A DNA stretch of 33,785 nucleotides from Acidobacteriota bacterium (GTDB lineage: Bacteria > Acidobacteriota > Terriglobia > Bryobacterales > Bryobacteraceae). How positions within the stretch are numbered: the stretch's first letter is position 1; each line of letters opens with the position of its first letter. The notes under the pieces were generated by a model. The model was not told the origin of the DNA, did no database searches, and saw only the letters and a list, made by a program, of their open reading frames with translations. Made by a program: the position numbers and the translations under genes. Shown piece by piece: positions 1,180-24,114 of the stretch. The DNA lies in NCBI GenBank assembly GCA_028876805.1, contig JAGWQP010000036.1, positions 1 through 33,785 on the forward strand, read 5' to 3'.

Positions 1180-1632
1180 ATGAAAGTGGAGTTCCAGGCC
1201 AAAATGATCCCATCCCAACTTTGGCGGCTCGTCGCCGCGATCGCTTTGCTTGCGATTCCGCTCGCGGCGCACCATTCCTTTGGCGCCGAATACGACGCCA
1301 ACAAGCCCATCACCCTCACGGGCGTTGTGACGAAAATCGAGTGGACCAACCCCCACAGCTACTTCTACCTCGACGTCAAGGACGAGAAAGGAACTGTGGC
1401 GAACTGGAAGTTCGAAGGCTATGGTCCAGGCGTCCTGTACCGCACCGGCTGGAAGAGAGGAATCAGTATGAAACCGGGCGACACGATCACGGTAACAGGC
1501 TGGCGCGCCCGTGACGGCACCAATTGGGGCCATTCACGGCAGGTCACGCTGGCCAGCGGCGAAAAGCTCTTCTTCGGTCCTCCGGCGGGTACCGGAGATG
1601 GCGGAAGCGTACCCCCGGTGGAGGTGAAATGA
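1180..1632 (+). CDS. DUF6152-like exported small protein (copy A)
   Basis: Signal-peptide-like N-terminus, then AAHHSFGAEYDANKPITLTGVVTKIEWTNPHSYFYLDVKDEKG; start 1180 or 1204; same family as 10548-10967 and 12780-13199. Confidence 0.8.
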   Translation: MKVEFQAKMIPSQLWRLVAAIALLAIPLAAHHSFGAEYDANKPITLTGVVTKIEWTNPHSYFYLDVKDEKGTVANWKFEGYGPGVLYRTGWKRGISMKPGDTITVTGWRARDGTNWGHSRQVTLASGEKLFFGPPAGTGDGGSVPPVEVK

Positions 1633-2468
1633 TGGGCCGAGTCTTGGCCGTTCTCGTCGCCCTGACCCTGTCTTTGCCGGCGCAAAACGCCACGCGAGAC
1701 AAGAACAAGGCTTCCACCAAGGGTTCGGTCCCGCGCACTCCCGACGGCAAGCCGGATCTGACCGGTGTCTGGCAGAGCGGCAGCACGGTCAAAGGGAGTT
1801 GGGAAGAGGCCAATTCCGGGACGGGTATCGGCGGAACGGGAAAGAATCCGTCGGCACCCGCGATTCTATCGGCCTCGGACCGGCCGGCGGCGGCCGAAAG
1901 AGCTCCTTATCAGCCCTGGGCCGCCCAGAAGGTCCTCGAGTCGTACAAGAACCGAGGCATTGACGATCCCGCGGCCGAATGCCTGCCGCCCGGCGTTCCC
2001 AGAACCTCAGTCTTAGGGCTCTTTCCGACTCAGATCATCGAGACCCCGAAACAAATCGTAATTTTGTATGAGTACATGCACGAGTACCGTATCATTCCGT
2101 TGAACGCAAAGCATCCCGACGATCTCTCGCCCACCTACATGGGCGATTCGGTGGGCCGTTGGGAGGGAGACACACTGGTAGTGGACGTCACGGGATTCAA
2201 CGAAAAGACGTGGCTGGTCGGCACCGGCACCTTTCACACCGACGCGCTGCATGTGACCGAGCGTTACACACGCGTCGATAAGGACCAGATCAACTACGAC
2301 ATCACCATCGAGGATCCCAACGTCTTGACCAAGCCGTGGGTCATTCACACCAACCTGATGTTGCGGGACGGCACTCGCCTTCAAGAGTACGTGTGCGCGG
2401 AAAACAACCTGGCTCCGGCGTTTTACGAAAGGATGCAGAAAAACGGCATCAATTTCCAGCGTCCGTGA
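1629..2468 (+). CDS. exported protein of the 'PDGKPDLTGVW' family, unknown function (paralogue 1)
   Basis: ATG at 1629 overlaps the upstream TGA (ATGA); signal peptide MMGRVLAVLVALTLSLPAQ; motifs RTPDGKPDLTGVWQ, MGDSVGRWEGDTLVVD, HTDALHVTE, EDPNVLTKPW. Confidence 0.8.
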   Translation: MMGRVLAVLVALTLSLPAQNATRDKNKASTKGSVPRTPDGKPDLTGVWQSGSTVKGSWEEANSGTGIGGTGKNPSAPAILSASDRPAAAERAPYQPWAAQKVLESYKNRGIDDPAAECLPPGVPRTSVLGLFPTQIIETPKQIVILYEYMHEYRIIPLNAKHPDDLSPTYMGDSVGRWEGDTLVVDVTGFNEKTWLVGTGTFHTDALHVTERYTRVDKDQINYDITIEDPNVLTKPWVIHTNLMLRDGTRLQEYVCAENNLAPAFYERMQKNGINFQRP

Positions 2469-2531
2469 CGCGGTTTCCGAAGCCCTTCCGGCTAGGCGCC
2501 GGTACACAATTTCTTTCACACGAGGTGCGTG

Positions 2532-3506
2532 ATGCTTGCGCGTTTCAGCCGACTCGAATCCTGGCTCGCTACGCTTTGCCTGGCTGTGGTTGCTGGTGCT
2601 GCCATGGGACCACTTTCGCCAGTTGTCGACGCCCAGCGGGCTCGCACGGCGAACGACGCCGTCTACACCGACGCTCAGGCCGTGCGCGGCCGGGCCCTCT
2701 ATCAGCAACGCTGCGCGGTGTGCCACGGCGAGCGACTGAGTGGCGGGCTCGCGCCGCCGCTTTCGGGGAGCGCCTTCCTGGGGGCATGGGGAGGGCAGTC
2801 CCTGTGGGACCTGTTGAGCAAGATCCGGAACACCATGCCGGCAGACGATCCAGGGAAGCTGACGCCTTCCCAGTCGGCCGATCTGGTGGCCCATCTTCTT
2901 CAGGTTGGCAAATTCCCCTCGGGCGAGGCCGAGCTCGGCACAGACGCGGCGGGGCTAAAGGCCATCGTACTCCCCGCCCAGCCGTCGATCGCGTCAGTAG
3001 CCTCACGCGCGCCGACACTTCCGGCGACGGGCAATCTGCAGCAGTTGATGGCCGGCATTCTATTTCCCAGCTCGAATATCATCTTCAACGTTCAGACCAA
3101 CGACCCCAGCGTGCCGGCGAAGCCCGGCGAGGTGGGCAAGGGAGCCTTCTCCTGGGTCGACTGGGGAGCCGGCATCTATAGCGGGTGGGATCTGGTCGAT
3201 AACGCGGCCGTTTCGGTGGCCGAATCGGCTCCGCTCCTTTTGACGCCGGGGCGCCGCTGCCAGAACGGCCGGCCCGTGCCGATCGACAGGCCCGATTGGA
3301 TCAAGTTCACGCAGGGGCTCGCGGAAGCGGGCCGCGCTGCGTACAAGGCCTCGCAGACCAGGAGCCAGGAGGCGGTGACGGAAGCCACCAATCAACTCGC
3401 CGATGCCTGCTTGAACTGCCACCGGGTGTATCGCGACAAGCCAGGCGGCACGCGTGCGGACCCATCGAATAAGGCGGCCCGTTGCGTGCCATCGGCCGGG
3501 GGCTAA
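2532..3506 (+). CDS. di-heme c-type cytochrome (N-terminal class I-like domain, C-terminal CxxCH region resembling cytochrome c')
   Basis: Signal peptide; CAVCH and CLNCH heme motifs; TMPAD possible Met ligand region. Confidence 0.8.
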   Translation: MLARFSRLESWLATLCLAVVAGAAMGPLSPVVDAQRARTANDAVYTDAQAVRGRALYQQRCAVCHGERLSGGLAPPLSGSAFLGAWGGQSLWDLLSKIRNTMPADDPGKLTPSQSADLVAHLLQVGKFPSGEAELGTDAAGLKAIVLPAQPSIASVASRAPTLPATGNLQQLMAGILFPSSNIIFNVQTNDPSVPAKPGEVGKGAFSWVDWGAGIYSGWDLVDNAAVSVAESAPLLLTPGRRCQNGRPVPIDRPDWIKFTQGLAEAGRAAYKASQTRSQEAVTEATNQLADACLNCHRVYRDKPGGTRADPSNKAARCVPSAGG

Positions 3507-3560
3507 CCGATCTAATCTGACCGTCTGCCGGCGCCCCACGCCAGCTTGAGAGGTGCTTGA

Positions 3561-4019
3561 TTGCCTCCTACGTGGAGTGGGGACACCAGTAAGGCTCAAG
3601 CTCTCTCGCCTGAACCGTACTGGACCTCAGAATTAGTTTTACGAGACGGCGGCCGACTCCGTGGTCGCATGGACGAGGCCTTAGCTGACCCGTTACAGGA
3701 CAACGGCCCCCGGCTCGGCGCACGCGCAATTTATCAACAAGGATTCGTGGACTTCTGCTTCCGGCGGAGCCCCGCCCCGATCACGTAAACTTACGCCAAG
3801 CCTATACCGGCGGCTCCACGGCTTGAGCGTGCTGGCGATGATTATCAGAACGGCCAACAGTACATCATTCTGCGCAATCCGTCCGGTGAGGTCGAAGCCC
3901 GCGCGGGCGCATCGAAGGCTACCGTTTTTGCCGACATCAGCTGGTGGCGTCCCAGCTCCGCTACGCTGGATCTTCATCACTTGCTCGCCAGTTTCGCCCG
4001 TTCCGGACCCATGGGGTGA
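3561..4019 (+). pseudogene. possible gene relic: two consecutive open segments in one frame separated by TAA at 3786-3788
   Basis: ORF 3561..3788 is followed in the same frame by 76 open codons with no internal start upstream (TYAKPIPAAPRLERAGDDYQNGQQYIILRNPSGEVEARAG...). Confidence 0.25.
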
Positions 4020-4147
4020 TCGAGCCATTGCAAGCGCCCACGCCGTTATTTTCGCGGAGTATACTGTCTCATGCGACCTGAAACATATCGCGGGCGGCCG
4101 CCCGCCAGGTGGCACACTTGCGCAAAACAAAGTCAAGGGAGGACGAA

Positions 4148-5296
4148 ATGAAACTTCGTCTCGTTGGATTGGGATTGGCCGCAGCCGGCGCAATTGCGCT
4201 GGGCGGCGTGGCGTTTGCTCAAAACGTACCGGAGCAATTCGTCGTCAGCGGCAAAGCCGCCGAAAAAATTCAGGATTTCACCACCATCAATCTGGCCACC
4301 GCGGAGCGCATTGCCGATGCGTGCGAGAAAGCCGCCACTGCCGAGGGCGTGCAAATCAGCATCATGGTGCTCGACAATGACGGCAACCATGTCTACATGG
4401 ACCGCATGGATGGCCAGGGCTATCTCAATATCGTCACGGCGGAGATGAAGGCGCGCACCGCGCTGGCAGACCGGCAACCCAGCAAGCTTCGGATGAACAC
4501 CGTGATTGAGGACCCCACGCGGGAACTTCAGTTCATTCAGCTTGGTTTGTTTTCCAATTCCGGCGGGCTTCCCATCGTCGTCAACAAGCAGATGATCGGC
4601 GTGGTCGGTGTCGGGGGTTCCGCGCCGCGCGTGCCCGTATGGAGCGACGAGATTTGCGCTCAGAAGGCGCTGGTCGAGGTGATCGGGCCGTCGGTCCCGC
4701 CGCTGGCGAAGGACCTTCCGCCGCGGAGGAACCCCAACCCGGGCCATGCGCCGGTACCGCGCTTTGCCTCCGCCACGACGCCCAAGTCTAGCCTGCCGGC
4801 GGAATTCGTAGTCGGCGGCAAAGGCGCCGCAAATGTCTTCGACGGCAATCAGATTTCGCTTGCGGCCGCTAAAAAGATCGCCCGCACCTGCCGCGACTGG
4901 GCGGTGTCGAAGGGCGGCACAGCATCGATATACGTGATCGATAATGCCGGCGAGTTCGTGCACCTGGAGCGCATGGATGGCCAGATCTACAACAACATCC
5001 GCACGGCTCTGTTGAAGGCGCAGACAGCACTGAGGAGCCGCCAGCCCACCTCCATCCGCACGGCACAGCTCAAGAACGACCCGGACGGCATTCCGCGGCA
5101 GCTAGGTAATTTCAATTTCTTCACAAATTCGGGCGGCATCCCCATCGTGGTCGATGGGCAGATGATCGGGGCCGTCGGCGTGGGCGGAGGCGCGGGCGGC
5201 GGCGATGAGAATTGCGCCATCGAAGGTCTGAAGGCGACATTCGGCGAGCACGTGACGCTGCCGGTCTATCCGGCTGCGGCGGGAGCCGGGCAATAA
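4148..5296 (+). CDS. exported GlcG/HbpS (DUF336)-type heme-binding-like protein with two tandem domains
   Basis: ATG at 4148 after AAGGGAGGACGA; signal peptide; two internal repeats, EFVVxGK..ISLAAAKKIA..MDGQ.YNNI.TA..KA.TAL..RQP..(F)(S/T)NSGG(L/I)PIVV..QMIG.VGVGG. Confidence 0.82.
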   Translation: MKLRLVGLGLAAAGAIALGGVAFAQNVPEQFVVSGKAAEKIQDFTTINLATAERIADACEKAATAEGVQISIMVLDNDGNHVYMDRMDGQGYLNIVTAEMKARTALADRQPSKLRMNTVIEDPTRELQFIQLGLFSNSGGLPIVVNKQMIGVVGVGGSAPRVPVWSDEICAQKALVEVIGPSVPPLAKDLPPRRNPNPGHAPVPRFASATTPKSSLPAEFVVGGKGAANVFDGNQISLAAAKKIARTCRDWAVSKGGTASIYVIDNAGEFVHLERMDGQIYNNIRTALLKAQTALRSRQPTSIRTAQLKNDPDGIPRQLGNFNFFTNSGGIPIVVDGQMIGAVGVGGGAGGGDENCAIEGLKATFGEHVTLPVYPAAAGAGQ

Positions 5297-5308
5297 GTGA
5301 ATGGGGAA

Positions 5309-5335
5309 CCCGGCGGTAGTCACTCAACCGCCGGG
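5309..5335 (+). other. intergenic hairpin: CCCGGCGGT - 9 nt loop - ACCGCCGGG
   Basis: Perfect 9-bp inverted repeat between two co-oriented CDSs, no T tract following. Confidence 0.7.
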
Positions 5336-5360
5336 CCATTCCTCACAGCAGGGAGGGACT

Positions 5361-5993
5361 ATGCAGAAGAGCCGGAGAATTTCAGCCAAGGTCGCGCTCG
5401 GCACAAGCGTTGCCGTGTTGGCGCTGATGGCGCAGGCAGGCGGGCCCAACCCGACCTGCCACCATTGCTCAGCCACGTATATTCCAGTGTCGGAGCTGAA
5501 TGCGTACACGGACAAGGCCGTGAAGTACCGTCTGGTCGATCAGCAGGTTCGCTCGGTGGACGTCGGTAAGGTCCAGGTGGGCATCGGGATGGTAACCCGC
5601 GGCAAGCTTCTTGCTGACCCCAACCGCAAAGGCGCAGTGGCCGAACATGAGCAAGTCAGCGAAGTCTACCATGTGATCGATGGAGAGGCGACGCTGCTAA
5701 CCGGGCCGGACCTGGTCAATCCCGTAAAAAGACCGGCGGACGAGCAGACGGTCCGGCTGCAAAATGGCCCAGGTTACAATTCCGACGAAATCCGGCAGCC
5801 GATGACAACGCGCCTCAAACCGGGTGATGTGTTAATCATTCCCGCCGGCACCGGGCATCTGTTCACCGAAATTCCCGATCACATCACGTATATGATGGTG
5901 CGGATCGATCCCGACAAAGTGGTGCCGACTAAGAGCCAAGCTCAATCCGAGGCTGACCTGAAGGCCATTCCCCCGAGGAAAGGCGCGAAGTGA
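5361..5993 (+). CDS. exported cupin-domain protein
   Basis: ATG at 5361 after GGGAGGG; signal-peptide-like N-terminus; EHEQVSEVYHVIDGEATLLTG ... LKPGDVLIIPAGTGHLFTEI cupin motifs. Confidence 0.8.
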   Translation: MQKSRRISAKVALGTSVAVLALMAQAGGPNPTCHHCSATYIPVSELNAYTDKAVKYRLVDQQVRSVDVGKVQVGIGMVTRGKLLADPNRKGAVAEHEQVSEVYHVIDGEATLLTGPDLVNPVKRPADEQTVRLQNGPGYNSDEIRQPMTTRLKPGDVLIIPAGTGHLFTEIPDHITYMMVRIDPDKVVPTKSQAQSEADLKAIPPRKGAK

Positions 5994-6805
5994 GCCGCCG
6001 CGCCTTCAAAGTCACGATTCTGGCCGGGCTAGCCTTGGGAACAGCTTTCGCTATCAGGAACCTACTGGCGCAATCGACGAGTTCGCGCGATCGAGTTCTG
6101 GTGGACGAACTGGTCCTCGCCAATCGCGTGCTGGCTCACGAAATTGGGGTTCTGGATGCGTACGGACACGTCAGCGTCCGGGATACGCGGAATCCCAATC
6201 GCTATTACCTGTCGCGCGCCATCTCGGCCGGTATGGTGACTGCCGCGGATATCATCGAGTACGATCTCGACAGCAAACCGGTGGAGGGCGACCGTTCCGA
6301 CGGGTACCTCGAGCGCTTCATCCACGGCGAAATCTACAAGGCACGCCCCGACGTGATGGCCGTGATCCACGCCCACTCGCCGGAATTAATCGCGTTCGGA
6401 TCGAGCTCGGTTCCCCTCCGGAACATGATTCACACCGGAGCGTTCATCAATGACGGCGTACCGATCTTTGATGTCCGCAAGTTCGGAGGCACTGCGGACG
6501 ATATGTTGATCCGCAATCCCGCGCTGGGTAAGGCTCTAGCTCAGGCGCTCAGCAGCAAAACGGCGGTGATTCTTTACGGACACGGTGTCGCAGTTGTGGG
6601 TGCCAGCCTGCCCACAGCCGTAAGTAACGCCTATTTCCTGAACATGAACGCCAAGGTAGAGGAGCAGGCGATCGCGCTGGGCGGCACCGTCTCCTATCTG
6701 GAGCGCGAGCCCGGCGCGAAAAGGCCGGCGAACGTTGCGCCCGCCGGGGCGGCAGCGAACAACCGCGCCTGGGAGTATTGGAAACGGCAGGTCGCCGGGA
6801 AGTGA
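5990..6805 (+). CDS. class II aldolase/adducin family protein with N-terminal signal/anchor
   Basis: GTG start overlapping the upstream TGA (GTGA); AHEIGVLDAYGHVSVRD, VIHAHSPELIAFG, YGHGVAVVG motifs. Confidence 0.82.
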   Translation: MSRRAFKVTILAGLALGTAFAIRNLLAQSTSSRDRVLVDELVLANRVLAHEIGVLDAYGHVSVRDTRNPNRYYLSRAISAGMVTAADIIEYDLDSKPVEGDRSDGYLERFIHGEIYKARPDVMAVIHAHSPELIAFGSSSVPLRNMIHTGAFINDGVPIFDVRKFGGTADDMLIRNPALGKALAQALSSKTAVILYGHGVAVVGASLPTAVSNAYFLNMNAKVEEQAIALGGTVSYLEREPGAKRPANVAPAGAAANNRAWEYWKRQVAGK

Positions 6806-7516
6806 CCGCGGCAAGCAGTTCGAGATGGACCCGCACTGTGCACCTGGGATTTGAAAACCGCTAGCTAGAAGCTTCGATTTTTGAAGCGCTCGTCAATTGC
6901 CGCTGGTACGCTCGGGTTGGCACGCCCGCTCGCGGTAAACAAGCTGGCCTGAGTCGACGTTTCTCGATCACCCCAGCCCGCGAGCAAGTACCGGTGCACC
7001 TTGAAATGGAAATCCATCTTGGCTCCAGTCGGGTCCGGACCGCTTCCAACAGATGTTTCCCTTCAGGCGTTTTGGACGACCGTTTCGGTCGCATCCTCAC
7101 GAATCGTACAATCCGGCCCGTAGGGCGACCATGGATCTCGATGGCGCCAATGGCGGTGGCGAGCGAGAAGGTTCTTGGTGGTTCGCGAGCCATGGCCCCC
7201 GCACGCTCTCGATTTTTCTGGATCTCGAAGTGACCCTCAGAGAACGCTTGTCGGCGGCGGGGGAGCGAGATGCGACGGACGGGAATTTCGTGCTCCAACC
7301 TGAATCAACTCGCCGGGGGTCAACAGCGGGGTTCGGTAATTTCGCGGTCCCTGCCTGGGCTGGGATCGGGTTGATGAATCAACAGCTCCGTCTGAACGGC
7401 GCCCTTGACCAGCCAGTAGCGCCCGGGTCTCAACCCAGCAAAGCGCACTCAACCCCGAAGGCGAACACCTCATCAGTCGCGCTTAACAAAAAGCTCGTCC
7501 ACGAGGCGCTCGGGGT

Positions 7517-8602
7517 TTACTTCAAGCGTTCGAACCGGTAATCGCCGGAAACGTGCATCTCCGCCAGGTAATCGACCGCACCTTTGCTGTCGACGAGGAA
7601 CTTGATCCCCAGTCCGAAAAAGCCGGAAAACATGGTTGGCGACTGGGCGATAAGCTGCACTCTGCCCCTTCCCTTCAGGTCGGCGAACAGCTTTCCCTCC
7701 GAGACGGTGATTTCGATCGTTCTGCGGATCGGTTCGCCGTTCCAAATGTCCAGCTCGCGGTAGGTGCCGGCGTACTTGGCAAGGGTTTCAGCCGGCACCT
7801 TGACTTCGGATTTCAGATCGTCAGACGCCTTGCCGACCCAGTGTTCGAGCGCGTCCTTCGCGTCCTCGTTGCAGACGTATTCGATCAGTTCAGTGTCGGG
7901 GGCAATCTGCGCCACGGCGGTGACGGTCCACGTCTTGTCGTAAACCTTGGGATCGCGGAGAGTCACACCGATTTCCATGTGTCCGAAGTCCTTGCGCCGG
8001 TAGCGTTCCGTCGTGTGCAGTGCCTCGGTGTGGGGATGGCCATCGCGATCGAGCCAGGTGCGGTCATTGAAGCCATTGCTCTCGACCACCAGCGTATCCC
8101 CTTCCCAGTGTCCGACCGAGTATCCCATCCAACTCGGATTGGGGTCGGCTTCCAGCTTGCGGCCGTCGACGAAAATCTGGCGATAGGTGAGATCCGGGTT
8201 AAGGATGATGATCAGCGTGGGAGTCTGAACAATCTTCATCATGCCTGCAGCCGTGCTCCCTCCGGCTGTCATGTACAACGGACCCAAAGGCAAGCAGTGA
8301 GCGCCCGGGTATTCTTTTCCGAGGTCTTCGGTCCGCTCGCGGACCAAAGCCTCTGCCCAGGGCTGAACCTCCCCCGGCTTCAGATCCGCCGTGATGTCGC
8401 GACTATATTTGGTAGAAATCTTGTCCCACAGACCCGACAGATCGGGTTTGCCGTCGGGTGCGCGCGGCGCGGGTGCGGTGAGATTCGGGTCGCCGCTCGC
8501 AGCGCGGGGCAGGCCCGGCGTAGGGTAGTTCGCCCATTGCGCCGCCAGCGGAACGCTGATCATCGACGCGACGATCAGCACGAAAATAGCAGCGGATTTC
8601 AT
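7517..8602 (-). CDS. exported 'PDGKPDLSGLW' family protein (paralogue 2) with extra C-terminal beta-rich domain
   Basis: SD AGGAGG upstream of ATG 8602; signal peptide; RAPDGKPDLSGLWD, MGYSVGHWEGDTLVVE, HTEALHTTE; C-terminal AKYAGTYRELD... segment. Confidence 0.8.
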   Translation of the reverse strand: MKSAAIFVLIVASMISVPLAAQWANYPTPGLPRAASGDPNLTAPAPRAPDGKPDLSGLWDKISTKYSRDITADLKPGEVQPWAEALVRERTEDLGKEYPGAHCLPLGPLYMTAGGSTAAGMMKIVQTPTLIIILNPDLTYRQIFVDGRKLEADPNPSWMGYSVGHWEGDTLVVESNGFNDRTWLDRDGHPHTEALHTTERYRRKDFGHMEIGVTLRDPKVYDKTWTVTAVAQIAPDTELIEYVCNEDAKDALEHWVGKASDDLKSEVKVPAETLAKYAGTYRELDIWNGEPIRRTIEITVSEGKLFADLKGRGRVQLIAQSPTMFSGFFGLGIKFLVDSKGAVDYLAEMHVSGDYRFERLK

Positions 8603-8639
8603 GATGTACCCTCCTATCACGATCTTCGAATCTCAGGTG

Positions 8640-9662
8640 CTATTTCTTCGCGGCTTCCGCGGCTGCTTTCTCTGCGGCGCGGGCACCCGCGAGGATGTTC
8701 TTCAGGCCGTAGTTCCCCTCGTGACACGCGTACTCGAAAATCGGGCCGGCGAACCTCCGCATCACTAACTCGGCCGACCAAGGCTTCGTCCAAACACTCG
8801 GGTCCTCCACGGTAAACCGGTAGAGAATTGTTTCCGGCCCGGTCATCGTGAAGCGCTCGACCACGTGCAGGTTGTGATCCGTGAAAATGTCCTGCCGGGT
8901 ATCGGAGGGCGGGCCGCGGAAGTTCGTCGCGTCATTGAAGTTGGTCGTATCGACCACCAGCGTGTCCCCTTCCCAATGGCCGCGCGAATCTCCGCCTAAC
9001 TGGCGGATGCCGGGCGGCAGATGCGGACTGCCGTCGAGCGGGATGTTGCGCACGCCGTGGATGATTTCGTGGTGGATCACAAAAGCCTGCGGAGGCTGCA
9101 CGATTTCGAGATTGGCATTGTAGGTAGAGCCCACCATCGGCGGCCCTTCATTGCCCCACGCAATACAGCGCTCCGCCAGGGTGCGATCCTGAGCGCTTTC
9201 GGCGCCCGCGCGGCGGCGGGCGGCGGCGGCCACCGCGACGGCCTGCTTGTTGCCTTCCTCCGACAGCGGAGGGATCCTGCCGTCGGGCGGGTCGAAGATC
9301 AGAGACGTGCGCCGGTTCGATATGATTTTCTGGTAACTCTCGCCCTGCCAGATGGCGTTGTCGTAGTGGACGTCTTCCGGCGACTGGCTGTTCTCCTGCC
9401 GTAGTCGCTGCGCCTCCACACTGGCCGCTTCGGCCTCGGTGTAGAATTCCTTGGTTCCCAACTCCTTGGGGCGTTCCAAGGGAGTAAACGTGGCATTGGT
9501 CCAATAACCTTGCATGTCGGGATGGCCATCCGCGGTCCGCGGGGGAGCCCAAATCTTTTGCGCTTTCGAGGCGATGTGAGTCGTTTGAGCCAGCGCCGCG
9601 GTTCCACCCAGAAACGCGATGGCTGCGGCGGTAGCGCCAAACGGGAAGAATCGAGGCCCCAT
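8640..9662 (-). CDS. exported 'DGHPDMQGYW' family protein (paralogue 3)
   Basis: SD GGAGGAG upstream of ATG 9662; signal peptide; PPRTADGHPDMQGYWTNAT, GGDSRGHWEGDTLVVDTTNFND, EDPSVWTKPW. Confidence 0.8.
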   Translation of the reverse strand: MGPRFFPFGATAAAIAFLGGTAALAQTTHIASKAQKIWAPPRTADGHPDMQGYWTNATFTPLERPKELGTKEFYTEAEAASVEAQRLRQENSQSPEDVHYDNAIWQGESYQKIISNRRTSLIFDPPDGRIPPLSEEGNKQAVAVAAAARRRAGAESAQDRTLAERCIAWGNEGPPMVGSTYNANLEIVQPPQAFVIHHEIIHGVRNIPLDGSPHLPPGIRQLGGDSRGHWEGDTLVVDTTNFNDATNFRGPPSDTRQDIFTDHNLHVVERFTMTGPETILYRFTVEDPSVWTKPWSAELVMRRFAGPIFEYACHEGNYGLKNILAGARAAEKAAAEAAKK

Positions 9663-9728
9663 GCGCCGTCTCCTCCTTCGTGCGTCTTTAGTCAATAGTA
9701 GCTCACGTAGCGGGGTCCGCGCTCGCCT

Positions 9729-10505
9729 TCATTTTGACTTCTGCTGCACATCGGCAGGCTTGCAGTTGCCGGCTTCGCACCGGTTGTTTTCTTCGCAGAT
9801 TTGTTCGAACAGCTTCCAGGTGGGGTGCAGTTTCATCTGAAAATTTTGCGACCACGGCCGGGTGAAGATCTTGGGGTCGTCGATGGTCATCTCGAGCGAA
9901 ACCGTCGTCGGGTCGAGGTATTGGAGACGCTCGATCACGTGGAGGGCGTCGCTATGGTACCGCACCAAACCTGTAGTAAAGGCATCAATCGGCCACGGCT
10001 TGAGCCCGATCGTGTCAATGACCAGAGTGTCGCCTTCCCACCTCCCGACCGAATCTCCCATGAAGGTCAGATCGAGATCTTTGGGATGAGGACGGCCATC
10101 GGTCGCGACGACCCGGAAGAAATGCATGTACTCGTAAAGAAAGGTCACGGTCCCCGGTTGCTCGAGGATCTCGGTCGCGTAGGGAGACAACACCTCGCGC
10201 GGAAAACCGTCCGGCAGGCAATGAGCCGTCGGGTCGTCGTGGTTGACGTCCCCGGTCAGCTTCTGCAGAAACAACGCCTCGCCTCCTGGCTTGTACGGAG
10301 CGAAGTTGTTGGGATCGAAGTTCGTCACCGAGGGCGTGTCGGTGTCATGGGGACCCACCTTGTGGGTGAATCCGGGGCCGGCCCACACACCGGAAAAATC
10401 CGGCTTGCCGTCGGCCGCGCGTGGTATCGCCTTGCGGTTTGAAGCCGGCTGGGCGAAAGCACCGGCCGCCAGAATCAACCACAAGAGCACGAAACGATTT
10501 CTCAT
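9729..10505 (-). CDS. exported 'DGKPDFSGVW' family protein (paralogue 4)
   Basis: Signal peptide MRNRFVLLWLILAAGAFAQ; PRAADGKPDFSGVWAG, MGDSVGRWEGDTLVIDT, HSDALHVIE, DDPKIFTRPW. Confidence 0.8.
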   Translation of the reverse strand: MRNRFVLLWLILAAGAFAQPASNRKAIPRAADGKPDFSGVWAGPGFTHKVGPHDTDTPSVTNFDPNNFAPYKPGGEALFLQKLTGDVNHDDPTAHCLPDGFPREVLSPYATEILEQPGTVTFLYEYMHFFRVVATDGRPHPKDLDLTFMGDSVGRWEGDTLVIDTIGLKPWPIDAFTTGLVRYHSDALHVIERLQYLDPTTVSLEMTIDDPKIFTRPWSQNFQMKLHPTWKLFEQICEENNRCEAGNCKPADVQQKSK

Positions 10506-10547
10506 GTTGAGGTCCTTCCCGAACTCGGTAGCCGCTCTGGCCGCGGT

Positions 10548-10967
10548 CTACTTCCCGTTGGCATCGCCTTTCGGAACCACATCCTCGGCGGCGCCCGCAA
10601 ACACCTTGCGGCCATTGGCAAACGTGACGTTGCCGCCGGATGCGTTGTTGGAACCATCCTTGGCGCGGAAACCTTCGACGATGATGACGTCGCCCGGCTT
10701 CAAAACGTCCTTGGTGATCCCCCGTCTCATCAGCATTCCGGGCGGGCCGCCGGAGAAGCCCCAGGTCGTCACTTTGCCGCTTTCCTCCGCCACATCGACG
10801 TAAAACCAGATGTGCGGGTTCATCCACTCCAGTTTCGAAACCACGCCTTTCACTTTGACGGGTTTGGTTGAGTCGTACTCGGCCGAAAACGCGTGATGCG
10901 CAAACGCCGGGACTGCCGCCGCGACGAGGCCCAGGCTCGCGGCACACACCGCCAATTTCGTCTTCAT
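10548..10967 (-). CDS. DUF6152-like exported small protein (copy B)
   Basis: MKTKLAVCAASLGLVAAAVPAFAHHAFSAEYDSTKPVKVKGVVSKLEWMNPHIWFYVDV. Confidence 0.8.
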   Translation of the reverse strand: MKTKLAVCAASLGLVAAAVPAFAHHAFSAEYDSTKPVKVKGVVSKLEWMNPHIWFYVDVAEESGKVTTWGFSGGPPGMLMRRGITKDVLKPGDVIIVEGFRAKDGSNNASGGNVTFANGRKVFAGAAEDVVPKGDANGK

Positions 10968-10981
10968 CGGGTCGCTCCTTC

Positions 10982-12640
10982 TCATTCCGCCATTAACGCG
11001 AAGGTCCAGACCGAGCCGCCGGTCGGCACCCTCCGGGAGGCGTAGCGAGTGGCCAGAGTGCCGCCGAGTCCCGACGCGACCGTCACATATTGGCGGCCTT
11101 TGTGGGTGTAGGTGATGGCCGTCGAATTGATGCTCGAGCCGGTCTTGAACTGCCAGAGCGTTTTGCCCGTCTCGTCGTCGAGGGCCAGAAACTCGCCCGT
11201 CAATTGGCCGGTGAAAACCAGTCCTCCCCCGGTCGCCAGCATGCCGGCTGAGCTGGGCAGATCGGTCAGGGGGACCTCCCATTTCTTGTCGCCGGAGAGG
11301 GGGTTGATCGCCAGGAAGTGACCGAAGACCTCACCCGGCCGGGTCTCCGGAAACCGGGCATTGACACCGGTTGAGGTTCCCCCCTTGACTGGCGGCCTCG
11401 GCGCCGCAAGCTGCTGGATACGCGGCACGTTCCATGTGCTGGCGTAGATGAGGCCGCTGTTCGGATTGAAGGCGATCGGCACGGCATTGGTGCCGCGCGA
11501 CGGCCAGATCTCTACCTCTTCACCCGCAGCAAAGCGTTTGTAGATGTCCGTCAACACCGGCCGGCCGGTGACTGGGTCGATCTCGGAAGCCCAGTTGACC
11601 CTGACGTAGGGGTGCGCCGCGATCAGTTTGCAGTTGGTCCGGTCCAGAACATAGAGGAAGCCGTTCTTGTTGGCCTGGATCATGACTCTGCGAAGCTGGC
11701 CGCCAACCTGGATATCGGCGAGCAAATGCTCGTCGGTGGCGTCCACGTCGTACACATCGTTGGGTGTGTATTGAAAATAGCAGGCAACTTCGCCCGTCTT
11801 CGGGCGGATGGCGAGAACGCTATTGGTGAACAAGCTATCCAGGCCCTGGCGAGGTCTGGGATCGTATGGCTCGGCGTTGCCGGTACCCCAGTAGACTAGG
11901 TCGAGCTGGGGATCGTAGGAGCCCGAGCGCCAGGTCGGACCTCCGCCTTGCGACCAGGCATCGGTGTTCTTCGGCCACGTCTCCGAGCCCGGTTCGCCGG
12001 GGGCGGGAATGGTATACCGGCGCCACAGTTTTTTCCCGGTGTCCGGATCCCATCCGTCGAGGAACCCGCGCGTGGTGGACTCGCCACCAGCCACTCCGGA
12101 GATCAGCACGCCGTTGGCTATGATCGGCCCACCCGTGGCGTAGTAGCCATCGGCCGCGTCCGCGAATTTCTGGTTCCAGATCTGTTCGCCGGTCTTCATA
12201 TCGAGCGCCAGCAAATGGTTGTCGATGGTCACGCGAAAGACTTTGCCGTTATAGATGGTCGCCGCGCCGCGGTGGAAAGCGGTTCGCTTGATCCCCGATT
12301 CAAGCACCACCGGCGTGCGCCAGATCTGCCTGCCGGTTTCGACGTCGATGGCGAATGTCCACCTGCCGTTGATCACGTACATGACGCCGTTATAAATCGT
12401 GGGCGCTGCCAGTTCACCCTCGTCGTTCATGAGGCTGGTGCTCCAGACGGGCACCAGGCGCTTGACATTGCTTTTATTGATTTGCGCAAGCGGGCTGTAG
12501 CTCTTCCGGTCGTAGCCCATGCTCTCGGTCGTGACGTTTTCGGGGTTCTTGGCGTCGTTGATTAATTCTTCGGTCGTTTGGGCCAGCCCGAGCATGGCCC
12601 AGGAACCAAGTAGCGTCGTACACACCCAGATTTTCTTCAT
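10982..12640 (-). CDS. PQQ-dependent (quinoprotein alcohol dehydrogenase-type) beta-propeller protein
   Basis: Signal peptide; repeated W-motifs (LDMKTGEQIWNQ, WDPDTGKKLWRR, LDDETGKTLWQF); SYDPQLDLVYWGTGNAEPYDPRPRQGLDSLFTNS. Confidence 0.82.
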   Translation of the reverse strand: MKKIWVCTTLLGSWAMLGLAQTTEELINDAKNPENVTTESMGYDRKSYSPLAQINKSNVKRLVPVWSTSLMNDEGELAAPTIYNGVMYVINGRWTFAIDVETGRQIWRTPVVLESGIKRTAFHRGAATIYNGKVFRVTIDNHLLALDMKTGEQIWNQKFADAADGYYATGGPIIANGVLISGVAGGESTTRGFLDGWDPDTGKKLWRRYTIPAPGEPGSETWPKNTDAWSQGGGPTWRSGSYDPQLDLVYWGTGNAEPYDPRPRQGLDSLFTNSVLAIRPKTGEVACYFQYTPNDVYDVDATDEHLLADIQVGGQLRRVMIQANKNGFLYVLDRTNCKLIAAHPYVRVNWASEIDPVTGRPVLTDIYKRFAAGEEVEIWPSRGTNAVPIAFNPNSGLIYASTWNVPRIQQLAAPRPPVKGGTSTGVNARFPETRPGEVFGHFLAINPLSGDKKWEVPLTDLPSSAGMLATGGGLVFTGQLTGEFLALDDETGKTLWQFKTGSSINSTAITYTHKGRQYVTVASGLGGTLATRYASRRVPTGGSVWTFALMAE

Positions 12641-12714
12641 GATCGGCCTTCCTTATCACTGCCGGTTTGGCGACTTCGCACAGCTTATCAGAAACGGAAA
12701 AGCCCGGCTGACGC

Positions 12715-12743
12715 TTGACAATGGGTCACCAGATCATTAGCCT
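12715..12743 (+). promoter_or_regulatory. candidate sigma70-like promoter, TTGACA-N17-TAGCCT
   Basis: Perfect -35 hexamer, 17-nt spacer, weak -10, 36 nt upstream of the CDS at 12780. Confidence 0.4.
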
Positions 12744-12779
12744 TTAGGAACGCTGGTCAGCAAGCAGCAGGAGAAGGCG

Positions 12780-13199
12780 ATGAACGATAAATTTCGTATT
12801 TGTTTTTGGGTGGCAATGGCAGGGCTTTTGGCAGCGCCACTGTGGGCACATCACTCGATCTCGGCTGAGTTCGATACGTCTCGAACGCTGAATGTGAAGG
12901 GCACTCTCACCAAAATCGAATGGGTGAATCCGCATGTCTATATCTACCTTGATGCCAAGGACGAGAAAGGCGAGGTGACGGCGTACGCATTAGAAGCCGG
13001 TCCCCCGGGCAATCTGCGAAGGGCGGGTGTGCTGAAAACGATGTTCAGCGTGGGGGATCAGGTCACCATCGAGGCTTACGCGACCAAAGATGGCACAAAG
13101 AACCTCGGATTGGTGAAGTCGATAACATTCGCTGATGGCCACACCATCGTGATGGGAAGAGATCCCAAGGAAGTCGAAAAGGCTAACCAGCCCGAGTAG
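12780..13199 (+). CDS. DUF6152-like exported small protein (copy C)
   Basis: Signal peptide; WAHHSISAEFDTSRTLNVKGTLTKIEWVNPHVYIYLDAKDEKGEV. Confidence 0.8.
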   Translation: MNDKFRICFWVAMAGLLAAPLWAHHSISAEFDTSRTLNVKGTLTKIEWVNPHVYIYLDAKDEKGEVTAYALEAGPPGNLRRAGVLKTMFSVGDQVTIEAYATKDGTKNLGLVKSITFADGHTIVMGRDPKEVEKANQPE

Positions 13200-13236
13200 G
13201 CCGGCTCGGAGGTTCACCGGCAAGGAGGGCAGACGG

Positions 13237-14214
13237 ATGAAAGGTTCTTTGCTCGCGTATAGCGTGGCGGCTACGATGGCGATGGCGTCTCTCTCGATCC
13301 CCGCAGCTGCACAAAATCACAAGGTCTCGCCGGGCGCGCCTCGGGCGAAGGAGGTTCAGGTTGGATACGGGCTTGACAAAGACCAGCCCTTTGCCGGGGC
13401 AGATCCGGATGGAACCGGCCTTCCCTTTAAAGAGCCTCCCGCCGAGGCCGTCGCAGCTGCCAAAAAAGCGCCTACTCCCCACATGATCGATGGGCATCCC
13501 GACCTGACCGGCTTCTGGGCGCCGGCCGGCTGGGGATACGCCGTCACACAGGGAAAACTGAGCACGGATGGGAAGACCTACTACACCCAGCGCCAGGCGG
13601 AAGGCCCCAATCAGACGGCGCAGAAGGTGGCAGAACTAAAACATCGCACCGAGGGCGCCAATCTTCCTCCCTACCGGCCGGAACTAGTAGCCAAGGTGAA
13701 AGATCTAGCGGAGCATCAAAGCAAGATGGATCCCGCGTTTTATTGCGCGCCCAAAGGATTCCCGCGCGTCGGCCCTCCGACAGAGGTCATCGAGAATCCG
13801 AAGACACTCGTATTCCTGTACGACACCGTCAACTCTTCGGAGCAAAATGCGTTTCGAGTGATCTCGACCGATGGCCGCGGTCACGACCCGACTCTCAATC
13901 CTTCGTACTACGGCGACTCCGTTGGCCACTGGGAGGGGAACACGATGGTGATCGATGTGACGAATTTCGTTGACGACACCTGGCTCAGCCAGAACGGCAC
14001 GATCCACAGCGATGCCATGCATGTGGTTGAGAAGCTGACACGGGAAGGCAACGTGGTCACCTGGGAGGTCAGCATTGAAGATCCCAAGGTGTTCACCAAG
14101 CCGTGGGTCTTCAGCCGCCACTTGATCCACGGCCTCGCAGGTGGTCATGCGCTAGAAGAAGCCCCGTGCGTAGAGCACGACGGCAATCATTTGGTGAATA
14201 CCGATCGCAACTAG
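13237..14214 (+). CDS. exported 'DGHPDLTGFW' family protein (paralogue 5)
   Basis: Signal peptide; MIDGHPDLTGFWAPAGW, YGDSVGHWEGNTMVIDVTNFVDDTW, HSDAMHVVE, EDPKVFTKPW. Confidence 0.8.
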   Translation: MKGSLLAYSVAATMAMASLSIPAAAQNHKVSPGAPRAKEVQVGYGLDKDQPFAGADPDGTGLPFKEPPAEAVAAAKKAPTPHMIDGHPDLTGFWAPAGWGYAVTQGKLSTDGKTYYTQRQAEGPNQTAQKVAELKHRTEGANLPPYRPELVAKVKDLAEHQSKMDPAFYCAPKGFPRVGPPTEVIENPKTLVFLYDTVNSSEQNAFRVISTDGRGHDPTLNPSYYGDSVGHWEGNTMVIDVTNFVDDTWLSQNGTIHSDAMHVVEKLTREGNVVTWEVSIEDPKVFTKPWVFSRHLIHGLAGGHALEEAPCVEHDGNHLVNTDRN

Positions 14215-19702: not shown

Positions 19703-20545
19703 TCAGTCGCCGGCCGCTGCTTCCTCCGTGGCCGTTTCTTCAGGCCCCCACCGCGCCGGATCGTGATGCGACAGATAATAATCGCGATCCAGCGTGCCGA
19801 AGATCATCGACTTGGTGATGACCAGCTTTTCCGGACGAATTGCGAAGTAGATGTGGACCATGATGAGCGCGATCAATCCTACGCCCGCCAGCCCGTGAAG
19901 GAAGTACATCCAGCCCCACGTCATGTCGCCGAACAGGTAGGGATTGCGCGTCAGGAAAGGCGTGCGCACGCGGAACATCATGAGCAGCCCGGTGCCCATG
20001 ACGCTGAGACCGGCCAGGACGATCACGCCATGATACATCTTGTTTTCGAGCGGATATTTGGCGAATCGGCGGGGCGGTGGAGCAGACAGCCCGAGCGAGC
20101 GGCGGAGCCGGCGGAGGCCGTCTTCGCTGTCGGCTCGGTCCGGCCAGATGGACCAAAAATCCAGCCAAAAGCTGGCGTGGACGACATGGAACACGATGGA
20201 CGCCGACAGAACCAAGCCGGCGACCCAGTGATACGTCACCCAGGGGAACTCGACACCGACCTTCGGCAGGAACGCGGTGAACAGCAGCACCAGCATAGCT
20301 GCCGCCATAATCCAGTGAAACAGGCGCGCGGCCAGCGAGTGGCGCGGAACTTTGTCTGGCACGAGTGCCGCAGCGTTGGCGCGCGCCGACTCTTCGTACT
20401 CCTCCGGGCCTGAAAAGCGCAGCCAGATGGCATGCCCGATCAGAAACAGCAGGCCGGCGATCGCCGATACCCACAGCAGGTAAAAGGAAACATGGATGGG
20501 GACGCTCTGCCCCCACGGACTGGTCGCCCACTCTACGATACCCAT
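19703..20545 (-). CDS. cytochrome b / formate dehydrogenase gamma-type membrane subunit
   Basis: Four or more hydrophobic helices with His (PRHSLAARLFHWIMAAAML, VTYHWVAGLVLSASIVFHVVHASF, YHGVIVLAGLSVMGTGLLMM, FLHGLAGVGLIALIMVHIYFAIRPEK). Confidence 0.8.
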   Translation of the reverse strand: MGIVEWATSPWGQSVPIHVSFYLLWVSAIAGLLFLIGHAIWLRFSGPEEYEESARANAAALVPDKVPRHSLAARLFHWIMAAAMLVLLFTAFLPKVGVEFPWVTYHWVAGLVLSASIVFHVVHASFWLDFWSIWPDRADSEDGLRRLRRSLGLSAPPPRRFAKYPLENKMYHGVIVLAGLSVMGTGLLMMFRVRTPFLTRNPYLFGDMTWGWMYFLHGLAGVGLIALIMVHIYFAIRPEKLVITKSMIFGTLDRDYYLSHHDPARWGPEETATEEAAAGD

Positions 20546-21549
20546 TTGGGCTCCTCCACTCCTCGAATGGCGCGCTTCACCAGGTTGCGCAGCAGCGGAA
20601 CCTTGTAGCCGTTGTAGCGCAGCGGTTCGGCGCCCTGGATGGCAAGGTGGCCGCCCAGTTGGGCCGTGGCTTCGTTGCGCGGCTTGCCGGTCACCGCATC
20701 TTCAACCTGCTTGAGACGCAGCGGACGCGCGGCCACGCCGTTGACTGCGATCCGGATGCGTTCAATCCGGTCGCCCGAGAAGACGGCTGCGGACGCCACG
20801 TTGACCAGCGGGAAGTCCCACACGTTGCGGTCCCGTACCTTTTCAAAATAGAAGTGTGTGCCGGCCCAGGCCGCCGGAATGCGGATCGCGGTGAGCAGGT
20901 CACCGGGCCGGAGCACGTTCATGTGCATGATATCGATGTCCGGACCGACGAAGTAGTCTTCGGCATTCAGCACGCGCTCGCCTTTGGAGCTGCGAATCAC
21001 CATCTGGGCGTCGAGCGCGATCAGGGCCGGCGCCGAATCCGACGGGTTGACGGCGACACAGCGGTCGGCGTTGAGAATGGCATGCTCGCGGTTAATGGCC
21101 GTGGGCGTATCGGCGTAGCAGGTGTTGCCGCCGGCGCGATAGCAGTTCCACCCGCCGCGATAATACCAGCAGCGCGCGTCTTGCGACACGTTGCCGCCGA
21201 GCGTGCCCTGGTTGCGGATCTGCGGGGAGGCGGCGGCTTCGGCGCCGGTCGCGAGGATGCTGAACTTTTCCCGCACCACCGGATGGCGCACTACATCGGT
21301 GAGCGTGGTCATAGCGCCGATTTCGAGCCCGCCGTTCCAGGGGCGGATCCCGGCAAGTTCCTTGACCTGGCTGAGATCGACTACCACTTTCGGCCGCTTG
21401 ATGCGGTCCTTCAACCAGTCGAAGGTGTCGAGGCCGCCCGCCATCACCCAAGCGTCTTTGCCGTGCTTGGCGACGAGCGCCAGCGCGTCATCGGTGTTGG
21501 CCGGCTGAAAGAGCTCGAAGGCCGGCATAATGTCGCGAATGATCGCCAT
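20533..21549 (-). CDS. FAD-binding subunit of xanthine dehydrogenase-family molybdenum hydroxylase (PaoB/YagS-like, with four-Cys insert)
   Basis: VMAGGLDTFDWLKDRIKRPKVVVDLSQV; QIRNQGTLGGNVSQDARCWYYRGGWNCYRAGGNTCYA...DRCVAVNPSDSAPALIAL. Confidence 0.88.
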   Translation of the reverse strand: MAIIRDIMPAFELFQPANTDDALALVAKHGKDAWVMAGGLDTFDWLKDRIKRPKVVVDLSQVKELAGIRPWNGGLEIGAMTTLTDVVRHPVVREKFSILATGAEAAASPQIRNQGTLGGNVSQDARCWYYRGGWNCYRAGGNTCYADTPTAINREHAILNADRCVAVNPSDSAPALIALDAQMVIRSSKGERVLNAEDYFVGPDIDIMHMNVLRPGDLLTAIRIPAAWAGTHFYFEKVRDRNVWDFPLVNVASAAVFSGDRIERIRIAVNGVAARPLRLKQVEDAVTGKPRNEATAQLGGHLAIQGAEPLRYNGYKVPLLRNLVKRAIRGVEEPKWVS

Positions 21550-21567
21550 ATTCGTTTCTCCTTCCGC

Positions 21568-24111
21568 TCAGATGTGAGCCGTCAGGTGTTCGCCAGCCGC
21601 CTTACCGGCTTCCAACGACGCCAGAATGATGTCTGAGGTCACGGGCGCACGGCGGAAGATTTCGTCTCCGAGCGCGTCCGAAAGAGCGTTGAGGATCGCC
21701 ATGCAACCGGCGCCCACCGGCGGTTCGCCGATGCCGCGCGCCCCGATGGGAGTCTCGGGATCTGGGATGTCGAGCGCGGCCCACTGCATATTCTCAGGCG
21801 CATCCAGAATCGTGGGCGGCTTGTTGTGGTGGAACCGCTTGGCTAGAGGCAGGCCGTAGTGCTGATCGTACACCCACTTCTGTCCGATCGCATGGCCGAT
21901 GCCCAGCATCGATCGTCCGAGAATCTGGCCGCCGAGCGCGTGCGGGTGAATGATCGTGCCCACGTCGGCGACTGCGAGGTAATCCAGAATGCGGTACTTA
22001 CCGGTTTCGAGGTCGACTTCCACCTCCGCAAAACCCGCCACGTAGGAGTGCGTCTGGCCATCGCGCGGCATGGTGTCGCGGGCCACCGCGAGCAGGCCCT
22101 GGCCAGCGAGCGCTTTGGCGGAAGCCACCGTCATGGGATTGATGCCTTTAGGCAGTTCGTGGCCGTCGTAGATGCCGCCGAGTTCAATGGCGCGCTTGGC
22201 GGCTTGGGCGAGCGTCATACCCGCGCCGCCCCCCTTGCGGGAGACGCGCTCGTTGGCGACCACGTAGTCTTCGGGCTTGCCGCCGTGATCCTTGGCGGCA
22301 ATTTGCCGAAGCTTGTCGATTCCGTCCATCGTAACGGCGTAGGCGGCCCGCGTGTGCGCATGCGTGGTCTGGCTGCCGCCCGACGGACAGCTCCAAGGAA
22401 GATTGCGCGCTGTACTGCCCCAAGTGAGCTCGCATTTTTCCCACGGCACGCCCAGCAGCTCGGCGGTCACGCGATGGGTGTCGCTCACCGACGCCGTGCC
22501 GAGATTGCCGATGCCAGACTGGATGTAGACCTTGCCGTCAGGCTTGATCACGAACAGCCCGTCAAAGCCGATCGAGCCACCAACGAAACAGCTGGTGGCC
22601 ACGCCAATCCCGCGTGCCTTGGAGCCGCTGCGTTTGGGCAGCACTTTGCGCTTTTCCCACTGGAATTGCTCGGCACCGCGGTCCAAGGCCTCCTTAATAT
22701 AAGCGCTGGTGACGTAGAGCCGCTTTTTGTCCTTGCCCACGGGTGGTCCGATGGGCGCTTTGCCTTCGGGTGCGTTCATGCGGTGGAGCGCCACCTGGTC
22801 GATTGCGAGCTTGCGCGAAGCTTTGGCCAGAATCGGCTCCATCAGGGCGATTCCCTGGTAACCGCCCGGCTGGCTTTGCGACACTCGGGGCGGCGTGTTC
22901 GTCAATACCGACAGGCCTCGCCAGCGCATGGCGGGCGGCTGGTACATGAGCGAGACCATGCGGCCGGACTGGTTGGCGTCGCCTTGCGGATCGTACGGAC
23001 CGTTATCGCAGATCACGAACATGTCGATCGCGGTGATCTTACCTTCTTTGGAGAATCCGACCTTGAGGCGGCCGTGGAGGCTCGGCCGCGCGCGGCCGAT
23101 GTAATGCTCCTCCTCACGGCTGATTCGCATCATCACGGGCTGTCCCGTCTTCCGGGAAAGGATGCACGGGATGATGGCCGAGATCGCGCTGGTGATCTTG
23201 CTACCGAAGCCGCCACCGGTGTATTCGCTGATCACCACGACTTTGCTTATGTCGGGCCGACCATTCGCGTCCACCAGGCCCAGCCAGCGCGCCAGCGCAG
23301 GCGCGGTTTGCGCGGTGCTCTGGGTCGAGCAGTGCACGTACACCTTGCCGTTCTGCCAGTAGGCCATGGCGGTGCGGGTCTCGAGCGTCTGGTGGCTGGT
23401 GTTGGGCGTGACGAAGGTCTCGTCCAAAACCAAATGGGCGTTCTTCAGCCCGGACTCCCAGTCGCCGAACGACCACTCGGGTTCAGTCGCCTTGCCCATG
23501 GGCAGCTTGCCTTCGTTGTACTCGGCGAAATCCTCCTTGGTCCACTTCACTTCGCCGACGTGCGGAGGCGGCTGCGGCGGCGGGGTGTTCGGGTCCGGCC
23601 GCATCCAGACGTTGCCTTCGACGCGCGCGTTTGGCCCGCCGGGTCGGAGGCTGACCAGCGGATCGACCACGTGCGGCAGCCGCTCGATGTCGAGTGTGAT
23701 CTTCTCGATGGCCTCGGCTGCGGTGAGCTCATCGACCGCGCACACAGCCAGAATCGGCTCGCCCTGGTAAACCGGATCGTTGGTGAGGCCGCGTTCTCCC
23801 AGGGGGTTGGCGGGAATCCGCTGGCCCAGATCCGTCATGGCGTCGGCCGGCTTCGGCATGTCATCCACGGTCAGGATGGCCTTGACGCCCGGCATCGCCA
23901 AGGCTTCGCGAGCGTCGATATGTCGCACGTGTCCATGCGGCACCGGGCTGAGCAGCAGCTTGGTGAACAGCATGCCGTCGGCGCGATAGTCCTCGGCGTA
24001 TTTCGCCTTGCCCGTCACCTTGGCAATCAGGTCGGGAGTGATATAGTTCTGGCCGAGCAGCTTGTAGGGAGGATGGGTCGGAAGCTGGTTATCGGGAGCT
24101 TTGGCAGCCAT
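21568..24111 (-). CDS. molybdopterin-binding catalytic subunit, xanthine dehydrogenase family
   Basis: VTGKAKYAEDYRADGMLFTKLLLSPVPHGHVRHIDAREALAMPGVKAILT; EYTGGGFGSKI; GARGIGEPPVGAGCMAILNALSDALG. Confidence 0.9.
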   Translation of the reverse strand: MAAKAPDNQLPTHPPYKLLGQNYITPDLIAKVTGKAKYAEDYRADGMLFTKLLLSPVPHGHVRHIDAREALAMPGVKAILTVDDMPKPADAMTDLGQRIPANPLGERGLTNDPVYQGEPILAVCAVDELTAAEAIEKITLDIERLPHVVDPLVSLRPGGPNARVEGNVWMRPDPNTPPPQPPPHVGEVKWTKEDFAEYNEGKLPMGKATEPEWSFGDWESGLKNAHLVLDETFVTPNTSHQTLETRTAMAYWQNGKVYVHCSTQSTAQTAPALARWLGLVDANGRPDISKVVVISEYTGGGFGSKITSAISAIIPCILSRKTGQPVMMRISREEEHYIGRARPSLHGRLKVGFSKEGKITAIDMFVICDNGPYDPQGDANQSGRMVSLMYQPPAMRWRGLSVLTNTPPRVSQSQPGGYQGIALMEPILAKASRKLAIDQVALHRMNAPEGKAPIGPPVGKDKKRLYVTSAYIKEALDRGAEQFQWEKRKVLPKRSGSKARGIGVATSCFVGGSIGFDGLFVIKPDGKVYIQSGIGNLGTASVSDTHRVTAELLGVPWEKCELTWGSTARNLPWSCPSGGSQTTHAHTRAAYAVTMDGIDKLRQIAAKDHGGKPEDYVVANERVSRKGGGAGMTLAQAAKRAIELGGIYDGHELPKGINPMTVASAKALAGQGLLAVARDTMPRDGQTHSYVAGFAEVEVDLETGKYRILDYLAVADVGTIIHPHALGGQILGRSMLGIGHAIGQKWVYDQHYGLPLAKRFHHNKPPTILDAPENMQWAALDIPDPETPIGARGIGEPPVGAGCMAILNALSDALGDEIFRRAPVTSDIILASLEAGKAAGEHLTAHI

Positions 24112-24114
24112 TGA

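Follow-up and report, generated by a model that had tools for sequence, protein, structure and literature searches.

The window is a 33,785-nucleotide stretch from a Bryobacterales-like genome of 4.88 Mb (656 contigs, 92% complete). It carries three copies of DUF6152 (Pfam PF19649), each followed on the same strand by a gene of the 'PDLSGVW' family, which we will call PAR (Table 1). A first-pass annotation, made from the sequence alone, had listed these six open reading frames, and all of them are present with the same coordinates and strands. It had called the short genes DUF6152-like; they are clear members of PF19649, at 93–108 bits, with all three copies above the family's gathering cut-off of 27 bits. 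The order that it noted, DUF6152 and then PAR in three of three cases, also holds within the window, with an ATGA overlap, a 42-nt gap, and a 37-nt gap. In profile searches of the window's proteins, no Pfam or NCBIfam model matched PAR. The PAR alignment has invariant columns (PD...G.W, C, WEG, DP, and C...E), and the window's partners belong to one family.

Table 1. DUF6152, PAR, and quinoprotein genes in the window.
Feature	Position	Strand	Evidence
DUF6152 (PF19649) copy 1, exported, predicted OB-fold protein	1180..1632	+	Pfam 104.6 bits; AHH after signal peptide; NPH
PAR, partner of DUF6152 copy 1, 'DGKPDLTGVW'	1629..2468	+	Family alignment; ATGA overlap
PAR with C-terminal DUF3471-like domain	7517..8620	-	Family alignment; DUF3471 28.7 bits (cut-off 29.3)
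PAR, 'DGHPDMQGYW'	8640..9695	-	Family alignment; profile match 375 bits
PAR, partner of DUF6152 copy 2	9729..10505	-	Alignment; AF2 model, pLDDT 86, pTM 0.85
DUF6152 copy 2	10548..10967	-	Pfam 108.2 bits; predicted mature-start HH at residues 24-25; NPH at 50-52
PQQ-dependent alcohol dehydrogenase-type quinoprotein	10982..12640	-	TIGR03075 484.8 bits (cut-off 480)
DUF6152 copy 3	12780..13199	+	Pfam 93.4 bits
PAR, partner of DUF6152 copy 3	13237..14214	+	Family alignment; profile match 402 bits

Two further PAR genes, starting at 7517 and 8640 on the minus strand, had been overlooked at first. With them, the central operon reads quinoprotein - DUF6152 - PAR - PAR - PAR. The quinoprotein gene lies 14 nt upstream of DUF6152 copy 2, and we treat it as operon context, not as a core part. 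(It also matches the 'acido-empty-quinoprotein' profile TIGR04528 at 374.5 bits, under the cut-off of 650; this profile has 61 match rows in the window's genome.) Elsewhere in the window, the region 4109–6805 includes a protein with a tandem pair of HbpS-like domains (PF03928, a haem-binding/degrading family), then a cupin-like protein and one with a class II aldolase fold, apparently exported. On the minus strand, at 20533–24741, three genes resemble, by their sequence, the FAD, molybdopterin, and 2Fe-2S subunits of molybdenum hydroxylases, and a cytochrome b-like gene (19703–20545) adjoins them.

Adjacency, fusion, and co-divergence of DUF6152 and PAR

The window's genome has 43 DUF6152 matches and, on the contigs examined, about 123 PAR genes. 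PAR is roughly three times as numerous and often solitary, and the majority of its genes have no DUF6152 neighbor. We asked how often a stand-alone DUF6152 gene has a same-strand PAR gene or fusion within 300 nt, as compared to the other genes on the same contigs. In the window's genome (80 contigs, with genes from our own simple codon-usage caller, so that start codons are approximate), this was true of 33 of 39 DUF6152 genes and of 50 of 553 other genes (9%; Fisher p = 2e-25, which overstates independence because the genes are paralogs). The corresponding counts were 58/94 versus 44/539 (8%) in 80 named loci, 49/64 versus 40/221 (18%) in loci from other Acidobacteriota genomes, and 18/19 versus 18/133 (14%) in a gammaproteobacterial MAG. 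Since the p-values, all around 1e-12 or smaller, ignore shared ancestry, we give more weight to the spread over genomes. The pairing, which the first-pass annotation had proposed to set against chance, thus withstands that comparison in all four samples.

The relatives that we retrieved via DUF6152 are mostly Bryobacterales. Our first DUF6152 alignment, of 32 sequences, was too diverse for scanning the collection; ten closer sequences served as the query instead, so the sample is biased towards this group. DUF6152 was found in 31 of 299 sampled Pseudomonadota genomes. Its link to PAR, with either gene first, was seen in other Acidobacteriota, in one gammaproteobacterium, and on plasmids of sphingomonads; no PAR was found on viral contigs. 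A fixed order of DUF6152 before PAR is not a rule: across the window's genome, we counted DUF6152 then PAR 24 times, PAR then DUF6152 14 times, and PAR on both sides five times, so we rejected the idea that DUF6152 always comes first. One PAR gene of this genome (L025:4581–6020, on G000:C80; 479 amino acids) contains two tandem PAR domains. We also noticed that four records titled 'Bordetella parapertussis isolate HRS-HS12-bin-180' (L090, L093, L137, and L153; CALQCC02) are almost certainly mistitled, as their DUF6152 match coordinates are identical to those of G179, which is listed in the family of the window's genome.

In fused genes, DUF6152 is always the N-terminal part and PAR the C-terminal part. 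Two fusions are in the window's genome (L017_17 and L022_10), six are in named MAG loci, two more are in the Acidobacteriota sample, and 17 are in one gammaproteobacterial MAG; of the long DUF6152 frames that we read there, all were fusions. Fusions are therefore known from both Acidobacteriota and Pseudomonadota. When 27 fusions are placed on trees of either domain, five changes are needed, versus about 25 at random. The largest fusion clade has 12 members in both trees, and the size of the second depends on the tree (10 members for DUF6152, 11 for PAR). The phyla are mixed in at least the first of these clades; this implies that the fusions are old, that they were transferred, or both.

Distances between DUF6152 proteins are also correlated with distances between the neighboring PAR proteins (Spearman/Mantel r = 0.63, p = 0.0005 in the window's genome; 0.40 in the gammaproteobacterium; 0.62 overall), so the pairs duplicated and diverged together. 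The first-pass annotation had suggested a functional two-component exported module, and adjacency, gene fusions, and co-phylogeny all support this. We have little doubt that the DUF6152-PAR module is real.

Predicted folds and conserved histidines

No relatives with solved structures were found by sequence for either DUF6152 or PAR. A model of a mature fusion protein (L108:3954–4985) has a mean pLDDT of 86.9 and a pTM of 0.79, which is higher than any single domain of the chain could give, so some packing between the domains is predicted. The DUF6152 part (pLDDT 87) has the strand order b1-b2-b3-a-b4-b5 of an OB-fold, and its Foldseek matches are OB-fold domains (for instance, Rim1 with TMt of 0.70). 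We rejected LysRS as a relative: these top Foldseek matches cover the OB domain only (TMq about 0.2). We therefore predict that DUF6152 is an OB-fold protein.

The model of a PAR protein from the window (9732–10451; pLDDT 86.0, pTM 0.85) is a barrel of eight to nine strands. Its best PDB matches are CRABP and fatty-acid-binding proteins (probability 0.97–1.0, TMt 0.49–0.53), with E values of about 0.01 (0.011 at best), which is below significance. PAR is predicted to be an up-and-down beta-barrel, as in the calycins (fatty-acid-binding proteins, CRABP, and lipocalins), with a weak likeness to the fatty-acid-binding proteins. Unlike them, PAR is exported, it has a conserved pair of cysteines, and its long N-terminal arm bears the PDLSGVW motif; the TM score is only about 0.5.

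DUF6152 has a conserved pattern at its predicted mature N-terminus. Among 281 scorable distinct domains, His-His directly follows the -1 residue in 278; the -1 residue is alanine in 270 of the 281, and the -3 residue is mostly alanine, valine, or leucine. In other words, an AxA-type signal-peptidase I pattern precedes the two histidines. The (N)PH histidine is likewise present in all 278 of these domains. The three exceptions have Gln-x in place of His-His and also have arginine in place of the NPH histidine. Of these exceptions, L017_17 and L318_02 share one branch in the tree of fusions and L278_04 is on another, and relatives that keep HH/NPH lie in between. The histidines were lost jointly, twice, and never singly, which indicates that they contribute to one putative shared site. 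However, the joint loss amounts to just two events, and in the sequence, the long OB strand b1 separates His-His from the NPH histidine.

In sequence terms, an N-terminal histidine together with an internal one is the mark of histidine braces and of related metal sites (PMC10952591; PMC12537917). DUF6152 shares export, a predicted mature N-terminal histidine, and a conserved internal histidine with such proteins (LPMO, CopC, YcnI, X325, DUF4198, DUF6702, and anglerases), and it differs from them in its predicted OB-fold scaffold, its His-His start, and its PAR partner. In particular, DUF6152 is not predicted to have the immunoglobulin-like beta-sandwich of LPMOs and CopC, and it does not match their profile; PF19649 is its sole Pfam match. 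Searching the two papers by term turned up neither an OB-fold case nor PF19649, and the resemblance to histidine braces is an analogy. The first-pass annotation had suggested that the AHH and NPH motifs bind a metal or cofactor. The predicted N-terminal position of His-His and the joint loss strengthen this suggestion and fall short of proving it. From these patterns, we lean towards a metal site formed by HH and NPH, with copper as the likeliest metal.

Proposed role of the module

We propose that DUF6152 and PAR act as one exported module, as partners or, when fused, as a single chain. Signal peptidase would cleave exactly before His-His, so that mature DUF6152 begins with these two residues. 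Together with the NPH histidine, in the turn between b1 and b2, they would form one metal site, most likely for copper, that is chemically like a histidine brace. The PAR barrel, with its one conserved cysteine pair, would hold a small and probably hydrophobic ligand, and PAR would dock on DUF6152. Dozens of pairs that diversified together in a genome would be for different ligands, which might enter via TonB receptors or be oxidized by quinoproteins and cytochromes of the periplasm. The whole scenario, in which a metal-bearing OB-fold protein works with a ligand-binding barrel, is plausible, and we offer it tentatively.

The recurrent neighbors of the module are c-type cytochromes, quinoproteins, TonB receptors, metallo-beta-lactamase-fold proteins, esterases, and tannase/feruloyl esterases. 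The operon in the window and these neighbors suggested that partnership with quinoproteins might be the core function. But enrichment of quinoproteins around the module falls short of significance in the window's genome (10 of 45 contigs, p = 0.08), so we keep them as context.

The main rival is copper trafficking, or the acquisition of another metal: DUF6152 would be a carrier like CopC or CusF that delivers metal to PAR, or to DUF6644 as a CopD-like partner, with no substrate chemistry. CusF is a periplasmic copper chaperone with an OB-fold, and DUF6152 is likewise a small exported protein, predicted to be an OB-fold, that may carry metal. DUF6152 has no CusF Pfam match, and its proposed metal residues are the N-terminal His-His and NPH. 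Among the known N-terminal-histidine proteins other than LPMOs, most are metal carriers (PMC10952591; PMC12537917).

This rival also draws on DUF6644, a small membrane protein with multiple transmembrane segments. In Pseudomonadota, the nearer DUF6152 proteins are found alongside PAR, while a divergent type (HHGW) adjoins DUF6644 in most of the readable loci. In the window's genome, DUF6644 follows DUF6152 on C581, and on C301, four tandem same-strand DUF6644 genes (2077–3966) lie near a DUF6152 copy (5161–5382) that has two in-frame TGA stops. We also retrieved loci from sphingomonad plasmids (Croceibacterium, Novosphingobium, and Sphingobium), using DUF6152 alone as the query. PAR lies beside DUF6152 in all four of the loci that we read, DUF6644 is present in three, and two have TonB receptors nearby. 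(A paper on steroid-saponin degradation by Sphingobium sp. TomTYG65 does not mention genes for DUF6152, PAR, or DUF6644, and our literature search found no mention of DUF6152 or DUF6644.)

DUF6644 has no CopD match in a Pfam profile search. It is collinear with short CopD-like proteins, at an HHalign probability of 70% (1.5% for the reversed control, with reversed controls ranging from 0.4% to 1.5%), but reaches just 16–34% with long CopD. The similarity points to copper without proving it. The DUF6152-DUF6644 branch does resemble the CopC-CopD pairs, in that an exported protein with a putative N-terminal histidine is encoded beside a multi-transmembrane protein. However, the predicted fold is different, the relation to CopD is weak, and the module in the window uses PAR instead of DUF6644. 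Furthermore, 43 copies of DUF6152 and about 123 copies of PAR in one genome are hard to square with copper supply alone, and the neighbors are catabolic (esterases, tannase, quinoproteins) rather than copper genes. We consider metal trafficking to be rather unlikely.

Slightly less likely again is that DUF6152 is an adaptor without metal, which caps or stabilizes the PAR barrel, with HH and NPH as a structural or interface feature. OB-folds commonly bind proteins, and every protein that lost the histidines is a fusion, in which the tether could make such a loss at the interface tolerable. But His-His right after the cleavage motif in 278 of 281 domains would be unusual for a structural role, and among the 29 fusion proteins of the tree, 26 still have the histidines. 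Finally, the co-phylogeny also fits mere co-duplication of neighboring paralogs with no functional link, but drift would break such pairs, and they have been kept in different phyla, with either gene first, and at least two large clades have them in fused form; the fusions and the cross-phylum linkage largely refute this idea, which we consider very improbable.

Returning to a metal-bearing DUF6152 that works with a ligand-binding PAR, we can speculate further that DUF6152 is the first histidine-brace copper enzyme with an OB-fold, and that its role is the activation of O2 or peroxide on a hydrophobic substrate that PAR presents, with a different compound for each of the many pairs per genome. 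This stronger version is improbable. If it is true, then soil and aquatic bacteria have a large uncharacterized system for periplasmic oxidation.

In one Bryobacterales-like genome, about 165 genes are devoted to two families without known function. The Pfam entry for PF19649 gives neither a function nor a partner. Thanks to the fusions, the linkage across phyla, and the paired loss of histidines, two families labeled "unknown function" can now be treated as one testable module, for which we propose a specific metal site. Because sphingomonad plasmids carry just one or a few copies, simple knock-outs should be feasible there. If the site binds copper, then DUF6152 would bring a new fold to the metalloproteins with N-terminal histidines. 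More broadly, Acidobacteria and several proteobacteria have many copies of an exported two-protein module whose role is undescribed, and one of the partners seems to begin with a pair of histidines that would be suitable for binding a metal (copper, for example).
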